Below the pieces are notes generated by a model. It was not told where the DNA came from. It did not search any database and saw only the letters and a list, made by a program, of their open reading frames with translations. A DNA stretch of 64,000 nucleotides from Candidatus Saccharimonadota bacterium (GTDB lineage: Bacteria > Patescibacteriota > Saccharimonadia > Saccharimonadales > Saccharimonadaceae), in assembly GCA_017545485.1 (NCBI GenBank), contig JAFWMY010000008.1, positions 62,001 through 126,000 of the forward strand. Reading direction: 5' to 3'. The position numbers were made by a program, and so were the translations under genes. Position 1 is the first letter of the stretch. Each line of letters begins with the position of its first letter. This document shows positions 46,845 to 62,418 of this stretch, in pieces.

Positions 46845-46922
46845 GGTGGGATTAGCTCAGATGGTTAGAGCGTCTGATTGTGGTCCAGAAGGTCGTCGGT
46901 TCGATCCCGATATCCCACCCCA
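46845..46922 (+). tRNA. tRNA-His (GTG)
   Basis: Encoded G-1, acceptor GTGGGAT/ATCCCAC, anticodon loop TTGTGGT (GTG), discriminator C and encoded CCA. TATAAT lies upstream at ~46830. Confidence 0.93.
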
Positions 46923-46995
46923 TAAATGGGGATAAAAAAGAGATGAACCGTGCTTAGAGCAAACGGTTCGATCCCGATATCCCACCCCATAAATG
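46897..46995. repeat. 32-bp direct repeat of the tRNA-His 3' end
   Basis: 46897-46928 (T-arm, acceptor, CCA and following bases) is repeated base for base at 46964-46995. Between the copies is a fragment TTAGAGC that recalls a D-arm, so the second copy may be an internally deleted tandem tRNA-His, or the scar of a tRNA-targeting element. Confidence 0.8.
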
Positions 46996-47839: not shown

Positions 47840-47868
47840 TTGACATTTTCGGTGTTGTGTGGTATAAT
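47840..47868 (+). promoter_or_regulatory. Promoter of leader 1
   Basis: TTGACA (47840-47845), 17 bases, TATAAT (47863-47868). Near-identical to the promoter at 48780-48808. Confidence 0.85.
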
Positions 47869-47874
47869 GTAGTT

Positions 47875-48034
47875 ATCTTTGGCTTGGTGAGAGACAGAGA
47901 GGTGTTTAACAATCAGATTATCTCAGATTTCAAATGAAATCTGATATGCTGTCAAAACCCCTAAACCCCCGTCACAAAATTAACTTAGTTCGGGGTGAGA
48001 GCCTCCGACAACCATATAGAAAGAGGTGAGATCC
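47875..48034 (+). promoter_or_regulatory. Structured leader 1 (candidate riboswitch-like element)
   Basis: About 160 untranslated bases before the five-helix membrane gene. Conserved with leader 2: an 8-bp hairpin CAGATTTC-AAAT-GAAATCTG (47924-47943), and a 3' part TTAGTTCGGGG ... CCTCCGACAA. CGGGG (47991-47995) can pair with CTCCG (48003-48007), or CCTC (48002-48005) can pair with the ribosome binding GAGG (48023-48026). The two pairings exclude each other, a switch logic for translation. Confidence 0.6.
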
Positions 48035-48649
48035 ATGAAAATTGGATTATTTATTTTATACGGAATCTTAGTATTCTTTATCACATTAACGGAGTGCTTC
48101 TTATTGAATGGAGGCATTTCTGTAGAGAAAGACTCCGAGGGGTTTCGGAGACTTAATCTAAAGGGAGAAGTCGGGTTTTATGACTGGGCAAGATCGTTTA
48201 TTTTGGCGATTATTGCTGGTTTTATGGCTGGACTAGCTCCTACCTCTGGCGTTTGGGGCATTGTAGCCTTTGTTGTAGCACTTGCTATGATGGGCTATAT
48301 TTGCTTCTGGTCTGCTACAGAGGCTTCTGAAATAAAGGAGATGGTATGTTTTGCATTTTTAATGCTAGTCATCCACTTTATTTCAAATACGGGCGCAATT
48401 GCCTCAGGGGCGGTGATTAGAAACTTCGGTTTTGTGAAGTTTTTAAAAGCAGTTCCTGGGATGGCATTAGTTGCCTGTATTGCGATTATGGTCGCAAGCA
48501 ACCTCTTGTACAGATCAAGGGGAGGAAATCTTCTAGAGCCAGATAAACTGGAAAAACAAAAACAGCTCAATTTCAAATACGCCGCTTATGCGGTAATTGC
48601 AATTGCAGCTGTTATTGTTATCGTGATGTTTATAAAAAGCATCACGTAA
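48035..48649 (+). CDS. Five-helix membrane protein
   Basis: 204 residues, about five hydrophobic helices: start MKIGLFILYGILVFFITLTE, a short polar loop (~30-50), three central helices and a C-terminal one after a basic stretch (RSRGGNLLEPDKLEKQKQ). No family recognised. ATG 48035 is chosen over GTG 48026 because GAGG lies 8 bases before it. The gene is governed by structured leader 1 and followed by hairpins, then by a paralogous leader and gene. Confidence 0.7.
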   Translation: MKIGLFILYGILVFFITLTECFLLNGGISVEKDSEGFRRLNLKGEVGFYDWARSFILAIIAGFMAGLAPTSGVWGIVAFVVALAMMGYICFWSATEASEIKEMVCFAFLMLVIHFISNTGAIASGAVIRNFGFVKFLKAVPGMALVACIAIMVASNLLYRSRGGNLLEPDKLEKQKQLNFKYAAYAVIAIAAVIVIVMFIKSIT

Positions 48650-48779
48650 CTAGGAGGGGTTAGGCATATACCTGGCGGCTCTTTGAGCCGCTGGGGAACC
48701 AGGATTTAAGAGGTTTGAGACTGAGATAAATTGATTGTTAAGCATAAGTTGATTAGGGATAGAGTTTATGGTTTATCTA
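48650..48779 (+). other. Intergenic hairpin region after the five-helix gene
   Basis: CGGCTC-TTT-GAGCCG (48676-48690) is enclosed by CCTGG/CCAGG (48671-48675, 48699-48703); alternatively CTGG-GGAA-CCAG forms a small GNRA-type hairpin. It is followed by GTTTGAGACTGAGAT (48713-48727), a motif repeated at 50731-50745. No T-run, so not a classical terminator. Confidence 0.55.
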
Positions 48780-48808
48780 TTGACTTTTTCGGTAATGTGT
48801 GATATAAT
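48780..48808 (+). promoter_or_regulatory. Promoter of leader 2
   Basis: TTGACT (48780-48785), 17 bases, TATAAT (48803-48808), sharing most spacer bases with the promoter at 47840-47868. Confidence 0.85.
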
Positions 48809-48814
48809 GTAGGT

Positions 48815-48980
48815 AGTCTGAGTTTAGGGAGTTGAATAAACGACGAAGGCCATTAACAACCAAATCATCCCAGATTTCAAATGAAATCTGAATACTATGC
48901 TATCTATGTCCCCTGTAACTATTTTTTGTCTTAGTTCGGGGGCGAAGTCCTCCGACAATCTATAAAGGAGGTGCGCAGCT
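48815..48980 (+). promoter_or_regulatory. Structured leader 2 (candidate riboswitch-like element)
   Basis: Second copy of the leader. The same 8-bp hairpin lies at 48871-48890. CGGGGG (48937-48942) pairs with CCTCCG (48949-48954); the same CCTCC (48949-48953) is a perfect complement of the ribosome binding GGAGG (48967-48971) 9 bases before ATG 48981. Thus one hairpin exposes and the other hides the start. Confidence 0.65.
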
Positions 48981-50639
48981 ATGCTGTTAACATCAATTGT
49001 ATCAGGTATTGCGATGGCAATGCTGGTTATTATTGCTTCTTACCTCTTTAATGGAGGTAATGAGTATTACCCTAATGGGCAAGCATATGGCAGTTTAACG
49101 GTTGCTCATGTGATAGGAGGAATCTTCCTGGGTGCTCTTGTTTGGGCTATCTATTATTTTAGTAGCTCTGACAGAGTTGTAGCTATAGTAGGGACAATTA
49201 TAGTCTCGCTACTTATTATAATGATGGTAGTTTGGTCTCTTAGAGAGACTTCAAGATGGTATGAAGCATTAGTAATGAGCGGAATCATTGTGATTCTGTG
49301 TCATTTATTAATGACTACCATTTCACGGATTACTTCCAATATCTCTTGGAGCATAACTCTCCCATCTGTAGTATTAATTGTAGCGCTTGCTATAATTTGG
49401 ATAGGGTATTTCATATATCACTATTATGGCTTACACTTGATTGAGCCAGTTATTAATGGCGCATATCTTGTCGGAGCAATTATAACCGCGATAGTAGCAA
49501 TAATCTTAATTATTTGCTTACTAACGGGATTATTAATTCCAGCTTCGGCAAGGGGAAGTGGTAAAAAGCCAAGCGATAGCGAGGCAGTTGTAGAGGAAGT
49601 AGAGATAATAGAAACTACTTCGGAAAATGATACTTGGTATCATTTCTACAACAGTGTCCTTCAAAAGGACAAGGACTCTAAAAATGATTTTAACTTCGGA
49701 CCTGACCCTACCAATAAAAATTGGAAAGTGAAGGAGTACGAAGAGGAATTCAGAAGAAGGATCAAATATGACCCTGCTCTTGCAGCGGCTGACATGGCAT
49801 GGCTTGATGCCAATGTTGGAACCCGTTATTTGGGTGAATTCTACGAGTCTTGTAAAGAAGATTGGGCAAAAACTATGAATCTGACGAAAGAAAGATTTAT
49901 GGCAGACCAGATAGTCTTTTACAAGCATCTAGATGCGTTTTTTGCATTTTTAGATTCGGCTGATAAAGTTGAAATAAGAGAATGCAAATCGGTTTCGGAC
50001 CAGATGTATATGAACCCTTACACCGTTAATGGTGTACCGGATATTATCGTCATGCTGACCGATGACCACTCTGGCTATGAGCTAGTATACACGTTCGTGA
50101 TTAAGGACAATGTGTTTGAGGTTGCATACCGTATTAATTGCGGTTATCAACCGACGGATGTTTCCGAGATTATGAACATTACACCTCAGCCGAAGCCGGA
50201 GAAGCCGACGCCTGAAAACCCGACGGAACCACCTACGGAGCCGCCAACTGAGCCACCTACTGAACCTCAATATAATAAGGACCCGAATAAAGCTCCAAAG
50301 AAAAACACGGAGCCGAATGACGACAAGGGTCCTGGAGAGGACACGAATAATGGTAAAGGTTCTCAGTATTCAACGAAGGACCAAGAAACCAACTCAAACC
50401 ATTATGATTCTTATGAGGATTATGTCAAGGATATTAATGACTTGAATAAGACAAATGAGAACCAGAAGACAGATAAGGATTCTAGTGAGCCTTCAACCAA
50501 GGCTGACAAGGGTACTAATGTTGACAATAATGGTGACAAAATCAATGAGCAGACTCCAATTAAAGAGCCTGCAAAAACAGAAGATGGTAAAGAAATTACC
50601 ACAGAGCCAGCTGGTCCATGGGGGGGACCAACTGACTGA
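48981..50639 (+). CDS. Six-helix membrane protein with soluble domain and Pro/Thr/Glu stalk
   Basis: 552 residues. Residues ~1-190 contain about six membrane helices; ~195-395 form a soluble domain (WYHFYNSVLQKDKD, WLDANVGTRYLGEFYE, VPDIIVMLTDDHSGYELVYT); ~400-425 are EPPT repeats; the rest is Asn/Asp/Lys-rich and probably disordered. No family recognised. Leader 2 with a perfect GGAGG controls it. The tail composition suggests a surface-exposed or crowding segment. Confidence 0.7.
   Translation: MLLTSIVSGIAMAMLVIIASYLFNGGNEYYPNGQAYGSLTVAHVIGGIFLGALVWAIYYFSSSDRVVAIVGTIIVSLLIIMMVVWSLRETSRWYEALVMSGIIVILCHLLMTTISRITSNISWSITLPSVVLIVALAIIWIGYFIYHYYGLHLIEPVINGAYLVGAIITAIVAIILIICLLTGLLIPASARGSGKKPSDSEAVVEEVEIIETTSENDTWYHFYNSVLQKDKDSKNDFNFGPDPTNKNWKVKEYEEEFRRRIKYDPALAAADMAWLDANVGTRYLGEFYESCKEDWAKTMNLTKERFMADQIVFYKHLDAFFAFLDSADKVEIRECKSVSDQMYMNPYTVNGVPDIIVMLTDDHSGYELVYTFVIKDNVFEVAYRINCGYQPTDVSEIMNITPQPKPEKPTPENPTEPPTEPPTEPPTEPQYNKDPNKAPKKNTEPNDDKGPGEDTNNGKGSQYSTKDQETNSNHYDSYEDYVKDINDLNKTNENQKTDKDSSEPSTKADKGTNVDNNGDKINEQTPIKEPAKTEDGKEITTEPAGPWGGPTD
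50222..50267 (+). repeat. Short tandem coding repeat (EPPT units)
   Basis: Four imperfect 12-base units encoding Glu-Pro-Pro-Thr within the stalk of the membrane protein. Confidence 0.8.
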
Positions 50640-50825
50640 TAGTTTTCAAGATAGCATGGATGGAGCCCGGGGGAGCTTGAACTTTATTTTTAGAAGTCCC
50701 AGTAGCATTTTGCTACTGGGCTCTATCCAAGTTTGAAACTGAGATGATTTGGTTGTGCAGACGATATTTAACAATTCGGCTAGCAGTAAGTCCAATTAAT
50801 TATTTTTTTAGAAAGGATTATAATT
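50640..50825 (+). other. Intergenic hairpin region before the surface-protein gene
   Basis: A perfect 10-bp hairpin CCCAGTAGCA-TTT-TGCTACTGGG (50698-50720) competes with a longer pairing of GGATGGAGCCC (50658-50668) and GGGCTCTATCC (50718-50728). GTTTGAAACTGAGAT (50731-50745) repeats the motif at 48713. No strong promoter is seen, so the next gene may be read through or use an unknown promoter. Confidence 0.5.
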
Positions 50826-57000: not shown

Positions 57001-60000
57001 GTGAAAAGAACAAATACAAAGAGTATTTTTGGGGCGTTGTGTTTGTTTTTTGCTATCTCATTATTTTCTGTATTTTGTAGTATTAGTTTTAATACTATTT
57101 CAGTATCTGCCTATTCAGCAGCGATTTCTACCAGTAATTCAGTAACTCTGGATGCAACCATTAATGGTACAGGTACCAGCATAAAAGCTGAATCTATTAA
57201 TATTCAAACAGACTGCCGTGCAGGATATAACCTAAATATAGCAACTCCTAATGGCAGTAATCTATATTTAAATGGAAACAATTCAGAAAATGCATCATTT
57301 ACTGCAGTAGATGGTACATCTGCTCTAAGCAGCAGTAATAATACTAATAAATGGGGCTATACTCTAGCAACTAATCCTACCAGCTCTACAGTATTCTTAC
57401 CATTATCTGCTAATACATCAGTGCTTAAAACTCCAGCTCAGACTGCCAGTCCTAATAGCAATATTAATGATACCTTTAACATTAATTATGGCGTACATAC
57501 AGACGAAACTATAACTCCTGGTGCATATAGAATGGGGAATAACGGTACAATCGTTTATTACCTTACTATGGATGAGACCTGTATGACAGTAAACATTGCT
57601 TATGATGGTAATAATGCAGATGCTGGTACTATGGGTGCAGCTGGCACCGGAATAATCCATACCGGAGTTAAAGATGGTGATACTATAGACCTAATTGCCA
57701 GTAACTTCAGCAGGACTGGCTATGGCTTTGCAGGATGGAGTACAGACCAGAATGCCGGAGCTAAACTTACCGATAATGATAATACTAATAATCCAATCGT
57801 TTATGGTCCACAAGAAACTGTTACTCTTCCTAATGGCTTTACGAATTATGACACAGACAATGATGGCATCGTAAAATTATATGCTGTATGGATACCAAGT
57901 CAAGGCAATCTACAAGGTTGGATGGGCTGTAGCAGTTTAGATACTGCCGCATATGACAGTACTACCGGAGCATTAGACCTCACTAAGAAATCTGTCACTG
58001 CATTAACAGACCAACGTGATAATGATACTTATGCCGTAGCTAGGCTCGCTGATGGTAAATGTTGGATGATTGAGAATCTAAGGCTTGATAATACCAATTC
58101 AGACAACTCTACTGGGGATTTGGCTCAAGGTTACGGCATATCTGCAACTTATGGTAATTTCGAAGGTTTAGCCAACGCAGAATCTAGCAACTTTACTGCC
58201 TCCGGTTACTCTAATAGCCTCTATTATAGTGGTACTCAAAGTGGTACTGCTACGGTAAACATTGGCACAAGTGACAACCCAAGTAATCGTATACCACGAT
58301 ATAACAATCTTAATACTCAGTTTAGAGCTAATAACCCAACCGGCAATACTTTCTCAAATAACAACACTTCTGGTGGTATGTATAGTTACGGCAATTACTA
58401 TACTTGGGCAGCCGCTATTGCAAATACTACTGCTTATACTACGGACGGCCAACCCGTTACTGATACTTCTCTTTGTCCTATTGGCTGGAGATTACCGCAG
58501 GGCGGTGATAAAACTAGAATTACGTCAAACGACGATAATGATTTCTGGAATCTCACAGTAGATGCACTTAACGGTGGAATTAATCCGGCGAATTACGATA
58601 GTGTAACTAGGCCGTACTATACAGATATTACCGAAGCTGGTCCAGTAGCGGTTAAACTTAGGAGTTTCCCTAATAATTTTCTTTACTCCGGTGACTTTCA
58701 ACAATCATCGTTGGCCGCCGGCGGTATCGGTCACTATTGGTCATCCACTGCTAACAATGGGACCAATTCGTATGAACTGCGCCTAGGTAATAATTACGTA
58801 TATCCAGGTACTAACCGTAATAGTAAGTACATCGGTTATAGCATTAGATGTGTTGCTTCTGAATCCGAAACTTTTGTCTTAACTTACAACGCTAATGGTG
58901 GTTTTGGTGCACCTGTTCCCCAAACTATCAGTGCAAACGTTTTGGCTACTTTTTCAATTAGCAGTACCACTCCTACTCGCTCAGGTTACACCTTTGCCGG
59001 TTGGACGGATGAAAAAGGCAATGAAGTTCAAGCTGGTGGCAGCTTCACTACTAAAGATCCAAACGCTGTACTCTATGCTATCTGGACCAACAACAACTGT
59101 AATCCTACGGCTACCACAATAGGTACTGGCAATACTTCTACAGATGCCGTCTGCCTCCAGGATGTCACTCCAAGTATGAAAGCCGCTCTTCCTACCGCTA
59201 CAGCTACTACCGGCACTTATAATCTCATTGATGCTCGTGACAACCAATCCTATACTATAGCTAAGCTCCCAGACGATAATCTCTGGATGACCAAGAACTT
59301 GAACTACAGTTCTATAAACCTGAATACTTCATATGATACAGATACCCCCACCACCTTCCGTCTGCCAGAAAGCACCACTACTTCAAACACCAACAATACT
59401 ACAGCAAGCATTCGTACCACTAATAATAGTGGCAATAATAATAACGGCACCTACTACTCCTGGCCAGCCGCCATCGCTAGCACAGCTAGCTATAGCAGTG
59501 GCAATGTTGCTTCATCCATCTGTCCCAAAGGTTGGGATCTCCCACCCAGCAATGCCTATACTAATCTCAAAACTCAGGCAGACTATAAGACTGGTAACCT
59601 CACCACCTCAGCCCCCAGCTCCTTCCTCATCAATGGTGGCTTCACTAATGGCGCTTCCTTTTACCAAACTAGTTACAGTCACTTCTGGACCAGTACCGTT
59701 AGCTCTTCCTCTGCTGCTTATGGCGCCAGAGTCAACGGCACTACTATGACCACCAGTAGCACTACTAGCACCACTTACGGTGGCAACAAATACTATCGTA
59801 AGAACATCCGCTGCATCGCCAGTAACGGTACGGTCACCATCAACTACGAAGGCAACGGCACTGCTGAATATCCAGTCACCGGCACAGTAGCCTCTCAAAC
59901 TAATGTAGATATAATCTCCACTAATACTCAACCCGGCACTGGCTTCACTAGAACCGGTTGGGTCTTTAACGGCTGGAACACCGCCGCCGATGGCACCGGT

Positions 60001-62418
60001 ACTGCCATTGCCGCAAGCACGGCTATCACTAACCTCAACCCTACTCCCGGCTTCACCATCACCCTCTACGCCCAGTGGCTCCCACAATACACTATTACCT
60101 ATGTGAATAATTGCCAGACCTACGCCAGTGCCAACACCAGCTGTACAACAACCGTTTCAAACGACACCAGCGAACAAAAGATTAATCTTACTAGTAACCC
60201 CAGCACTGGTACTGAAACTGGCATCCTCGCCGCTTACAACAAATGGACTCTTACTGGCTGGAAGATAGCTGGTTGGACCACTAATGCCGACGGTACTGGT
60301 ACGGAATATCGTGTAAGTACTACCTACACAGTTCCTAGTGGCTCTAGTGTAGGTAGCGGTATTACCCTATATGCTCACTGGGTACCAGTTTATTCTATTC
60401 AATACGATGGTAATGGCGCAGATAATAGCAGTACTGGTATGGGCTCTACTGACCCGTCTACTGGCATTAAATCCGTAGCCCACACTAATGTAGCCGAAGG
60501 TGATACCTTTGATCTCTTCGCCTCTAACTTTAAGCGTGCAGGTTACGGCTTCGTAGGATGGAGTACAGACTCTGATGCTTGGAATAAGCTAACCGACAAT
60601 GACACTACTAACGACGCTAAAATCTGGGGCCCGAATGAAATCATCACTGCCCCAGCTTATAACGGTATGCCAATTATCACTCTCTATGCCATCTGGGCTC
60701 CTGCCGAAACAGACGGCAGCAACCCAGTCTATCTCCAGAACTGGACTGGTTGCTCGGCTATGACTGCTACTACCTACGACACCACTACCGGCACCCTCAC
60801 CGTAGCTAAGGACAGCATCACTGCTCTTACCGACCAAAGAGACAACCAAGTCTATACTATTGCGAAACTCGCTGACGAAAACTGCTGGATGGTAGAAAAC
60901 TTAAGACTAGACAACACCCCAGAACTCTCTACCACAAATACTAATATAAACAGTAACAACTCTACATTACCAATCACCAACGAATATGGTAGCACTACGT
61001 CAAATTATCTTTCCGCTACATCTAGTAGCTGGTGCACCAATCAGAATGCCGCCTGTTACGACCAATCCCGCCTTAATACCACTAACACTACAGCTAACGT
61101 CACTCCATCCCAAACCCAAAATGTTACTTCTGCTAATGCTCACACCAACTTCAATAACACTATCTATAGTTACGGCAACTACTACAACTGGTATTCCGCT
61201 ACTGCAGGCTACGGTACTTATAGTAGAACTACTAGTGAACCCACCGCAGGCGACCTATGTCCAGCTGGCTGGAAACTTCCTTACGGTAATACTGGAACTT
61301 CCGGAACAACTAGCATAGGCGGAACTAAAGGCGGTTTCTACTACCTTGCTAACAGAATGAGCGCTACGGCGAGTAACCAAGTTAACTCCAACAAATTCCG
61401 CATGTTCCCCAACAACTTTATTTACTCCGGCTACTGGCGCGGCAGCTCGGCGGACAATCGTGGCGGCTACGGGAGCTATTGGTCAGCCTCAGCTAGCGGT
61501 AGCAGCTACGCCTACGGTCTGGGCCTCGACAGATCCTACGTCAACCCAGGCAATTATTACAACAATAAGTATTACGGCTTCGCAGTTCGTTGTATAGCTA
61601 ATAAAACAATCAATAGTATCACTTATATGCAGGAATTTAAGACATTAAGCGAAAGAGATAAAACAGATGTGCTGAATTCTATGATTGAAGGCGAGCAATA
61701 CCAACTAAAAGATAATCGTGATGAAAAAACTTACTATGTTTCTAAACTTGCGGATGGTAATGTCTGGATGACGCAGAATTTAGACCATGACATTGTGACA
61801 ACTACTGATTTCTATACTCCAACTAACACCGACATTCCATCTAACTGGACTGCGTCTACTGCGACTTATCCTACTGGGACTACGACTTGGAATAGTTCTG
61901 CCACTGCACCTCGTTCCTATGATCCGGGAAATAAAATTTGGGATGGAGGCCCCGACCGTCATTATAATACCGTTTTAGATAACATGGGTCAAGGAACTAA
62001 TATTCATTATCATCTTGGTAATTACTACAATTGGTCGGCAGCAGTGGCGATGAATGATACTAGCTCTTATTCTACCCAATATCAAAACATAGATCAATCT
62101 ATTTGCCCAGCTGGCTGGACTTTGCCAACTGGTGGTAATAATTCCAGTCAGGGTTCCTTCAAATATTTACATGATCAATATGGCTGGAATTCGGCATTAC
62201 CTCCACGCGTATGGTACGATCCAATGTACTATACATTTGGCGGTACTTGGATAGGGTATTCTGACGCAGTGGCATCAGAAGGCACTTTATGGTCATCGAC
62301 CGTGGGGACGTCTAGCACCTCTTACGTCATGAATGCAGATTGCGATGGTGGTGTTGTGACGCAAAATAGCAGTAAATATAAAAGCAGTGGCTATTCTGTC
62401 CGTTGTGTGGCGCGGTAG
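57001..62418 (+). CDS. Giant secreted protein with FISUMP and InlB-type repeats
   Basis: 1805 residues. Signal peptide (1-~38, ending near VSAYS), an N-terminal beta domain, then alternating modules: InlB/Listeria-Bacteroides repeats ending LYAVW, LYAIW, LYAQW or LYAHW (ends near ~300, 700, 1025, 1128 and 1235), and four FISUMP domains (~305-625, 715-940, 1245-1535, 1540-1805) with DQRDNDTYAVARLADGKCW, DARDNQSYTIAKLPDDNLW and matching CPAGW/CPKGW and SIRCVAS ends. No C-terminal anchor is visible. Likely an adhesin or surface layer component. Codons shift to C-ending, GC-richer use between ~59.1 and 61.6 kb, then back, so modules may have different origins. Start is GTG. Confidence 0.85.
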   Translation: MKRTNTKSIFGALCLFFAISLFSVFCSISFNTISVSAYSAAISTSNSVTLDATINGTGTSIKAESINIQTDCRAGYNLNIATPNGSNLYLNGNNSENASFTAVDGTSALSSSNNTNKWGYTLATNPTSSTVFLPLSANTSVLKTPAQTASPNSNINDTFNINYGVHTDETITPGAYRMGNNGTIVYYLTMDETCMTVNIAYDGNNADAGTMGAAGTGIIHTGVKDGDTIDLIASNFSRTGYGFAGWSTDQNAGAKLTDNDNTNNPIVYGPQETVTLPNGFTNYDTDNDGIVKLYAVWIPSQGNLQGWMGCSSLDTAAYDSTTGALDLTKKSVTALTDQRDNDTYAVARLADGKCWMIENLRLDNTNSDNSTGDLAQGYGISATYGNFEGLANAESSNFTASGYSNSLYYSGTQSGTATVNIGTSDNPSNRIPRYNNLNTQFRANNPTGNTFSNNNTSGGMYSYGNYYTWAAAIANTTAYTTDGQPVTDTSLCPIGWRLPQGGDKTRITSNDDNDFWNLTVDALNGGINPANYDSVTRPYYTDITEAGPVAVKLRSFPNNFLYSGDFQQSSLAAGGIGHYWSSTANNGTNSYELRLGNNYVYPGTNRNSKYIGYSIRCVASESETFVLTYNANGGFGAPVPQTISANVLATFSISSTTPTRSGYTFAGWTDEKGNEVQAGGSFTTKDPNAVLYAIWTNNNCNPTATTIGTGNTSTDAVCLQDVTPSMKAALPTATATTGTYNLIDARDNQSYTIAKLPDDNLWMTKNLNYSSINLNTSYDTDTPTTFRLPESTTTSNTNNTTASIRTTNNSGNNNNGTYYSWPAAIASTASYSSGNVASSICPKGWDLPPSNAYTNLKTQADYKTGNLTTSAPSSFLINGGFTNGASFYQTSYSHFWTSTVSSSSAAYGARVNGTTMTTSSTTSTTYGGNKYYRKNIRCIASNGTVTINYEGNGTAEYPVTGTVASQTNVDIISTNTQPGTGFTRTGWVFNGWNTAADGTGTAIAASTAITNLNPTPGFTITLYAQWLPQYTITYVNNCQTYASANTSCTTTVSNDTSEQKINLTSNPSTGTETGILAAYNKWTLTGWKIAGWTTNADGTGTEYRVSTTYTVPSGSSVGSGITLYAHWVPVYSIQYDGNGADNSSTGMGSTDPSTGIKSVAHTNVAEGDTFDLFASNFKRAGYGFVGWSTDSDAWNKLTDNDTTNDAKIWGPNEIITAPAYNGMPIITLYAIWAPAETDGSNPVYLQNWTGCSAMTATTYDTTTGTLTVAKDSITALTDQRDNQVYTIAKLADENCWMVENLRLDNTPELSTTNTNINSNNSTLPITNEYGSTTSNYLSATSSSWCTNQNAACYDQSRLNTTNTTANVTPSQTQNVTSANAHTNFNNTIYSYGNYYNWYSATAGYGTYSRTTSEPTAGDLCPAGWKLPYGNTGTSGTTSIGGTKGGFYYLANRMSATASNQVNSNKFRMFPNNFIYSGYWRGSSADNRGGYGSYWSASASGSSYAYGLGLDRSYVNPGNYYNNKYYGFAVRCIANKTINSITYMQEFKTLSERDKTDVLNSMIEGEQYQLKDNRDEKTYYVSKLADGNVWMTQNLDHDIVTTTDFYTPTNTDIPSNWTASTATYPTGTTTWNSSATAPRSYDPGNKIWDGGPDRHYNTVLDNMGQGTNIHYHLGNYYNWSAAVAMNDTSSYSTQYQNIDQSICPAGWTLPTGGNNSSQGSFKYLHDQYGWNSALPPRVWYDPMYYTFGGTWIGYSDAVASEGTLWSSTVGTSSTSYVMNADCDGGVVTQNSSKYKSSGYSVRCVAR

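Follow-up and report, generated by a model that had tools for sequence, protein, structure and literature searches.

To judge from sequence comparison, the leaders of two adjacent genes for membrane proteins in a Saccharibacterium from the gut are members of an RNA family that is absent from Rfam 15 and occurs throughout the bacterial family carrying it, and each leader has changed together with a complementary trailer located after the same gene. On balance, it appears probable, by a modest degree, that the leader constitutes the 5' half of a two-part cis-regulatory RNA bracketing its gene, in which the interaction with the trailer would open a hairpin (P3) and would be coupled to a translational switch at the Shine-Dalgarno (SD) sequence.

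The window, i.e., the whole stretch of DNA analysed, covers 64,000 nucleotides of Candidatus Saccharimonadota bacterium (assembly GCA_017545485.1, contig JAFWMY010000008.1, positions 62,001-126,000, forward strand), and its features are collected in Table 1. The promoters, the hairpins, the CGGGGG of leader 2 (48937-48942), and the CCTCC/GGAGG and CCTC/GAGG pairs reported in a preliminary description of this DNA all coincide with the sequence. The same description held that the leaders are more alike than the coding regions, and indeed the leaders align well, while the two proteins lack BLASTP similarity (best E 0.85). Helix P4, a third alternative helix, and the trailers were absent from it. 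The folding energy of the two leaders is by itself unexceptional (z -0.62 and -1.78), so the case for them rests on comparison.

Table 1. Features of the two leaders, their genes and their trailers (window coordinates)
Feature	Position	Strand	Basis or remark
Promoter 1 (TTGACA-17-TATAAT)	47840-47868	+	Consensus 12/12
Core 1, TTAACAATCAGATTATCTCAG, comprising the conserved unpaired linker and the first bases of P3	47906-47926	+	R1 match 46.2 bits; complementary to trailer 1
Hairpin P3, leader 1 (8-bp)	47924-47943	+	Helix covaries in relatives
Hairpin P5, leader 1 (TCGGGG ... CCTCCGA), with anti-SD CCTC at 48002-48005	47990-48008	+	Sequence; family-level tests
SD GAGG of gene 1	48023-48026	+	Sequence
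Gene 1, 204-aa membrane protein	48035-48649	+	ORF
Trailer 1, made up of anti-core 1 (48721-48741) and an extension; complement of core 1 and of the P3 5' arm	48712-48741	+	Duplex -37.7 kcal/mol; best partner in blind downstream scan
Promoter 2 (TTGACT-17-TATAAT)	48780-48808	+	Consensus 11/12
P1/P2 hairpin, leader 2	48815-48852	+	P2 covariation, P1 mostly wobble changes
P1, leader 2	48816-48819 with 48847-48850	+	Mostly wobble changes
P2, leader 2	48822-48826 with 48837-48841	+	Covariation; P2 halves z -10.7
Core 2, TTAACAACCAAATCATCCCAG	48853-48873	+	Columns nearly invariant, unpaired; complementary to trailer 2
Hairpin P3, leader 2 (8-bp)	48871-48890	+	Two-sided changes at 7/8 pairs in relatives
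Alternative helix P4, leader 2: GUCCCC (48908-48913) with GGGGGC (48938-48943)	48908-48943	+	Family permutation z -7.6, 0/5000
Alternative hairpin P5, leader 2, with anti-SD CCTCC at 48949-48953	48936-48955	+	Folding; family tests
Alternative helix P6: CCTCC (48949-48953) with SD GGAGG (48967-48971)	48949-48971	+	z -4.1, 1/5000
Gene 2, 552 aa, N-terminal membrane part and soluble domain	48981-50639	+	ORF
Trailer 2, made up of anti-core 2 (50739-50755) and an extension; just ahead of the DUF11 gene	50730-50755	+	Duplex -32.0 kcal/mol

The leader RNA family and its distribution

The earlier statement that the leaders match no known class agrees with the library search: Rfam 15 yields no match to the window leaders up to E 10 and none to the leaders of diverse relatives up to E 1, the library matches among the latter being tRNAs or sub-threshold. 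Within the genus the leaders are common. Leader 2 finds blastn matches in 80 of 100 sampled genomes, the covariance model R1, built on 28 relatives, matches 67 of 74 sampled members, and the covariance model R2 matches 151 of 174 genomes (104 of the 110 of good quality); moreover, the position of the promoter is conserved in 116 of 117 leaders (<=2 mismatches).

Outside the genus, R1 and R2 give no matches because these models are too narrow, and confinement of the RNA to one genus is ruled out by a promoter-plus-core pattern and by R3, a sequence model built on the sister form. The pattern occurs in 21 of 152 genera, nearly all of the same family (about a dozen matches for the reversed-pattern control), while R3 finds matches in 22 genera of the family and, among 192 genomes from across the phylum, in two, of which one belongs to the family; pattern and sequence model place relatives in about 20 sister genera. 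A core-pattern scan of named genomes returns 104 contigs, of which two, from Lokiarchaeota and Flavobacteriales, look like chance; the remaining contigs among the matches listed are Saccharibacteria or one MAG with the RNA, and most come from ruminant guts. Phage and plasmid collections contain no DNA match, and none of six viral contigs with the short pattern has an R1 match.

The 5' domain of the leader

Hairpins P1 to P3 hold as predicted structures, with compensatory changes in P2 and P3. Among 98 distinct aligned relatives, P1, P2, and P3 are paired in 87%, 83%, and 98%, respectively, and two-sided changes occur at 14 of the 17 pairs. The covariation score, from an alignment fitted to the structure of the model, is 0.366, compared with 0.159 in shuffles (0/500) and no more than 0.107 on sliding; together with the distribution of R2, this supplies the homologues with covariation whose absence would have refuted the preliminary description. 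The linker AUUAACAACCRAAUCAUCYC is nearly invariant and unpaired. In the main subfamily of the genus, P1/P2 resembles a kink-turn (GUCU-GA-GUUUU / AAAAC-GAC-GA-AGAC), a likeness that is not kept in the other subfamilies.

Several other roles for these elements were considered and rejected. A pseudoknot of P2 with the P4 strand fails since a leader's own pairs are no better than those of other leaders (z -0.2), the alternative pairing of AGUCUGAG with CUCAGAUU lacks co-variation, and the core as a direct anti-SD shows just a slight excess over background genes. Attenuation by a uORF or a leader peptide does not hold, since leader 2's ATG in the loop of P3 shows no conservation and an earlier start preceded by an SD is found in just 22 of 113 leaders; transcription attenuation is rejected because the leaders have no intrinsic terminator on the + strand.

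The Shine-Dalgarno platform

In the 3' part of the leader, a G-rich strand has two possible partners, an upstream strand (P4) or CCUCC (P5), and CCUCC may alternatively pair with the SD (P6). In P4, the upstream strand faces the 5' arm and loop of P5. The strands of P4 differ in sequence from one leader to the other (CAAUACUCC:GGAGGUAUUG in L040, CAUACACCCCC:GGAGGCGUAUG in L061, CGUCAUCCCC:GGGGGCGACG in L009, CAACUCU:AGGGUUG in L175), and at three redundancy levels a leader's own strands beat those of other leaders (z -7.6, -6.0, and -4.9). The own anti-SD likewise fits the own SD (z -4.1, -3.2, and -2.7 at the three levels), and controls are null for both helices; these permutation tests ignore phylogeny, and similar sequences make them conservative. 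The corresponding value for P5 (z -14.7) is inflated, as P5 was picked by folding. Comparison hence establishes the predicted helices P2, P3, P4, and P6, folding indicates P5, and P1 is marked mostly by wobble changes.

The passing of the permutation tests by P4 and P6 sustains the original proposal of mutually exclusive helices able to free or hide the ribosome-binding site, a feature that the leaders appear to share with the anti-SD/anti-anti-SD expression platforms of translational riboswitches. Across the family, the expose-or-hide switch at the SD is supported as a predicted structure in 78 of 113 leaders, which carry the anti-SD (CCUCC or a variant) in the 3' arm of P5, whereas the other 35 lack P5 and its CCUCC hairpin; the switch is thus common, not universal. 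In these 35 leaders, a direct anti-SD as a substitute shows no excess over shuffles. The P4 and P5 states are near isoenergetic, with a median of 3.4 kcal/mol favouring P4, the predicted accessibility of the SD differs modestly between states (0.45 vs 0.32), and constrained folds of the window's own two leaders separate the states uncleanly.

Trailers and their complementarity to the leaders

The reverse complement of the core, CUGAGAUGAUUYGGUUG, lies between the leader's gene and the DUF11 gene in the genus members with the DUF11 gene region at hand, at a median distance of 2.1 kb from leader core to trailer. In the genome of the window, the + strand holds only two exact copies of the element, trailers 1 and 2; a minus-strand match near 48724-48741, for which chance had been a candidate explanation, proved to be trailer 1. 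A blind scan detects a partner 3' of the gene for every cassette scanned with sufficient contig, tandem and dispersed second copies included, and no partner for three copies that lie on contigs breaking off within the gene or close to it; in genome G038, the first core finds its best partner in the trailer belonging to the second cassette.

The core and anti-core of the same unit fit better than those of different units (z -10.2, or -9.2 in the non-redundant set), and the complementarity continues into P3, where it takes in the 5' arm and the loop (z -6.0, with z -0.8 for the control on the 3' side). Leader and trailer have changed together according to this comparison, and in the window trailer 1 tracks the divergence of core 1. 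Crude energy estimates give -34.7 kcal/mol for core 1 with trailer 2 and -21.1 kcal/mol for core 2 with trailer 1; core 1 pairs well with trailer 2 and core 2 poorly with trailer 1, so that cross-talk among leaders and trailers is possible. The predicted partners of the trailer, namely the core and the P3 5' arm, are situated tens of bases 5' of the SD; no pairing with the SD itself is found. On the + strand, from the start of leader 2 to trailer 2, there is no terminator-like site outside the coding region.

The trailers look structured in their own right, with a variable G+C-rich hairpin just before the anti-core (50659-50729 and 48672-48705); in trailer 2 an outer stem formed by GGAUGGAGCCC with GGGCUCUAUCC encloses the hairpin, and similar hairpins occupy the same place in relatives. 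After the anti-core (window 50760-50790), the 5' region of the relatives' DUF11 gene contains a second core-like piece, GACGAAAATTAACAATTCGGCTAGC, perhaps the worn leader of that gene.

Proposed mechanism and the riboswitch alternative

In the mechanism that we propose, P4 would leave CCUCC free to form P6, covering the ribosome-binding site, while P5, in which the G-rich strand engages CCUCC, would free it. The default state is probably OFF, since P4 is complete before CCUCC has been transcribed and is, as a rule, more stable. The trailer would dock on the single-stranded core as a toehold and displace or open P3, and the folding of the leader, hence the choice among P4, P5, and P6 and the translation of the gene, would depend on the complete transcript or, alternatively, on another transcript carrying a trailer. 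Given that each leader matches the trailer after the same gene, the two ends of the mRNA may control each other. The opening of P3 may be linked to the choice among P4, P5, and P6 or to cleavage by RNase III; neither the conserved stretch after P3 (GCUAUCUA) nor the 3' arm of P3 was found to pair with the platform, so that the coupling of the freed arm and its sign are what we infer.

A different account, which we regard as unlikely, is an ordinary translational riboswitch or protein-sensing leader, in which P1, P2, the core, and P3 form the aptamer, a ligand shifts P4/P5/P6, and the trailer is a separate element, e.g., a decoy or a second binding site. It would suit a conserved core between covarying hairpins, a genuine switching platform, and the recurrence of the leader before paralogues elsewhere in some genomes, but it meets the absence of an Rfam match, conserved unpaired residues for which complementarity to the trailer largely accounts, and targets that are fast-evolving membrane and small proteins instead of a metabolic pathway. 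The part of the leader that looks like an aptamer, namely the invariant core and P3, is largely explained by complementarity to the trailer, and a metabolite or protein ligand is possible, although no longer needed to explain the conserved core.

Tandem arrays in sister genera and other possible explanations

Two observations in sister genera raise the hypothesis of a DNA-level cassette. In g36, tandem arrays (L267, G249:C10; L268, G249:C16; L273, G272:C10) consist of small ORFs that differ from one another. Each lies between a core and an anti-core, often with a promoter of its own, and the usual order, as in L267 and L268, is promoter, core, small ORF, and anti-core, repeated; these may be cassette arrays. 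In g7, near-identical leaders lie ahead of different genes. Under such a hypothesis, the inverted repeats formed by core and anti-core would serve a recombinase, whole gene cassettes would be exchanged, and the RNA pairing would be incidental. The balance of transitions within the core would be in keeping with this, in that core-trailer differences, with the last G of the core included, are G-U on the mRNA strand in 36 cases vs A-C in 40.

In the P3-arm part, however, the mismatches are G-U on the mRNA strand in 44 cases and A-C in 5; once the most variable position is set aside, the counts are 24 and 5 (p 0.0005, uncorrected for the tree). The coevolution of P2, P3, P4, and P6 is likewise of the RNA type, a sense ORF follows every leader with sufficient contig, and no flipped unit is seen among the leaders examined, each species being represented by a single consensus assembly. 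Both the G-U bias and the helices of the platform favour RNA, and recombination as the sole function is improbable, while a dual RNA/DNA role of the inverted repeats is possible.

Also improbable is that the pairing of leader and trailer forms a processing stalk as in rRNA precursors, with a duplex of about 28 bp as the RNase III substrate for trimming or destabilising the mRNA and the SD switch as a separate layer, an account that leaves the selection on P4 and P6 unexplained, although it would suit the predicted duplexes of -32 and -38 kcal/mol, the adjacent anti-core and core of some neighbouring g36 units, which would form one hairpin, and the precedent of the icaR mRNA of Staphylococcus aureus, where a UCCCCUG motif pairs with the SD region and RNase III cuts the duplex of the 5' and 3' UTRs (PMC3868564).

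The genes and their neighbourhood

The start of gene 1 was set at the SD-preceded ATG at 48035 (the ORF list gives GTG at 48026), and a homologue lies at the syntenic place in genome G256. The soluble domain of gene 2, about 194 residues long (about 218-411, window 49635-50213), is conserved in 99 ORFs of the genus loci examined and is also found in sister genera; no known family could be assigned to it. Its AlphaFold model (pLDDT 94) has helices followed by an antiparallel sheet, without a clear match in the PDB (Foldseek E 0.2 or worse) and with one VIA-align row to a ketosteroid-isomerase-like protein (Z 2.5, 4.9 A over 88 residues); a VirB8-like NTF2 fold is one candidate. In divergent members of the genus, the membrane and soluble parts are separate genes under one leader. 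Dispersed second leader copies in these members precede paralogues of the soluble gene, answering the anticipation that further copies would be found before related genes.

Downstream of gene 2 lie the gene for a DUF11/B_ant_repeat protein and then that for a TrbL/VirB6-like protein, followed at 57001-62418 by a giant surface-type protein of 1805 aa with several FISUMP (Fib_succ_major) and Listeria-Bacteroides repeat domains. At 46920-46985, the tRNA-His gene is followed by a partial duplicate of its own 3' half (GGTTCGATCCCGATATCCCACCCCATAAATG). Excerpts of two published studies describe T4SS genes as widespread in Patescibacteria and VirB6 as essential in one cultured Saccharibacterium, and these excerpts make no mention of such leaders (PMC12102498; PMC11665869).

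Relation to known systems and significance

The two-part RNA proposed here resembles the icaR mRNA in the complementarity of leader and trailer around one gene. It differs in that the trailer would pair with the core and a hairpin located 5' of the platform, not with the SD region, and in that the pair of leader and trailer has coevolved throughout a whole family and is repeated from gene to gene. With riboswitch expression platforms it has in common the mutually exclusive helices, and it is set apart from them by a chain of three helices (P4, P5, and P6) and by a presumed aptamer core that is complementary to a downstream trailer. In synthetic toehold switches, a single-stranded toehold lies beside a hairpin, and the 5' arm of this hairpin is likewise complementary to the trigger RNA. 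The core and P3 would be analogous to this arrangement, although the present system is natural and family-wide, its trigger would be encoded after the same gene, and the opened hairpin does not hold the SD. The g36 arrays share with integron cassettes and their attC sites tandem small ORFs separated by imperfect palindromes; unlike the RYYYAAC/GTTRRRY boxes at the ends of attC, the GTTAAC of g36, as read by eye, lies towards the middle of the palindrome, and many g36 units have their own promoter and leader.

More tentatively, the whole may be described as a system of modular units, each composed of a promoter, a toehold leader with a three-helix switch at the ribosome-binding site, a gene, and a matching trailer, in which the 3' element of the mRNA itself would act as the trigger RNA by strand displacement, the units being single before surface or secretion genes or arranged in tandem arrays.

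How ultrasmall episymbiotic bacteria, with their few regulators, control their genes is little known, and the literature searched contains no structured regulatory leader from Saccharibacteria. If the proposed reading is true, these bacteria would possess a lineage-wide post-transcriptional system that, in the genus of the window, stands beside genes for a surface protein and a VirB6-like secretion component. It would be a rare example from nature of pairing between the two ends of bacterial gene units that is documented by compensatory evolution, and it would provide a natural counterpart for synthetic toehold switches.
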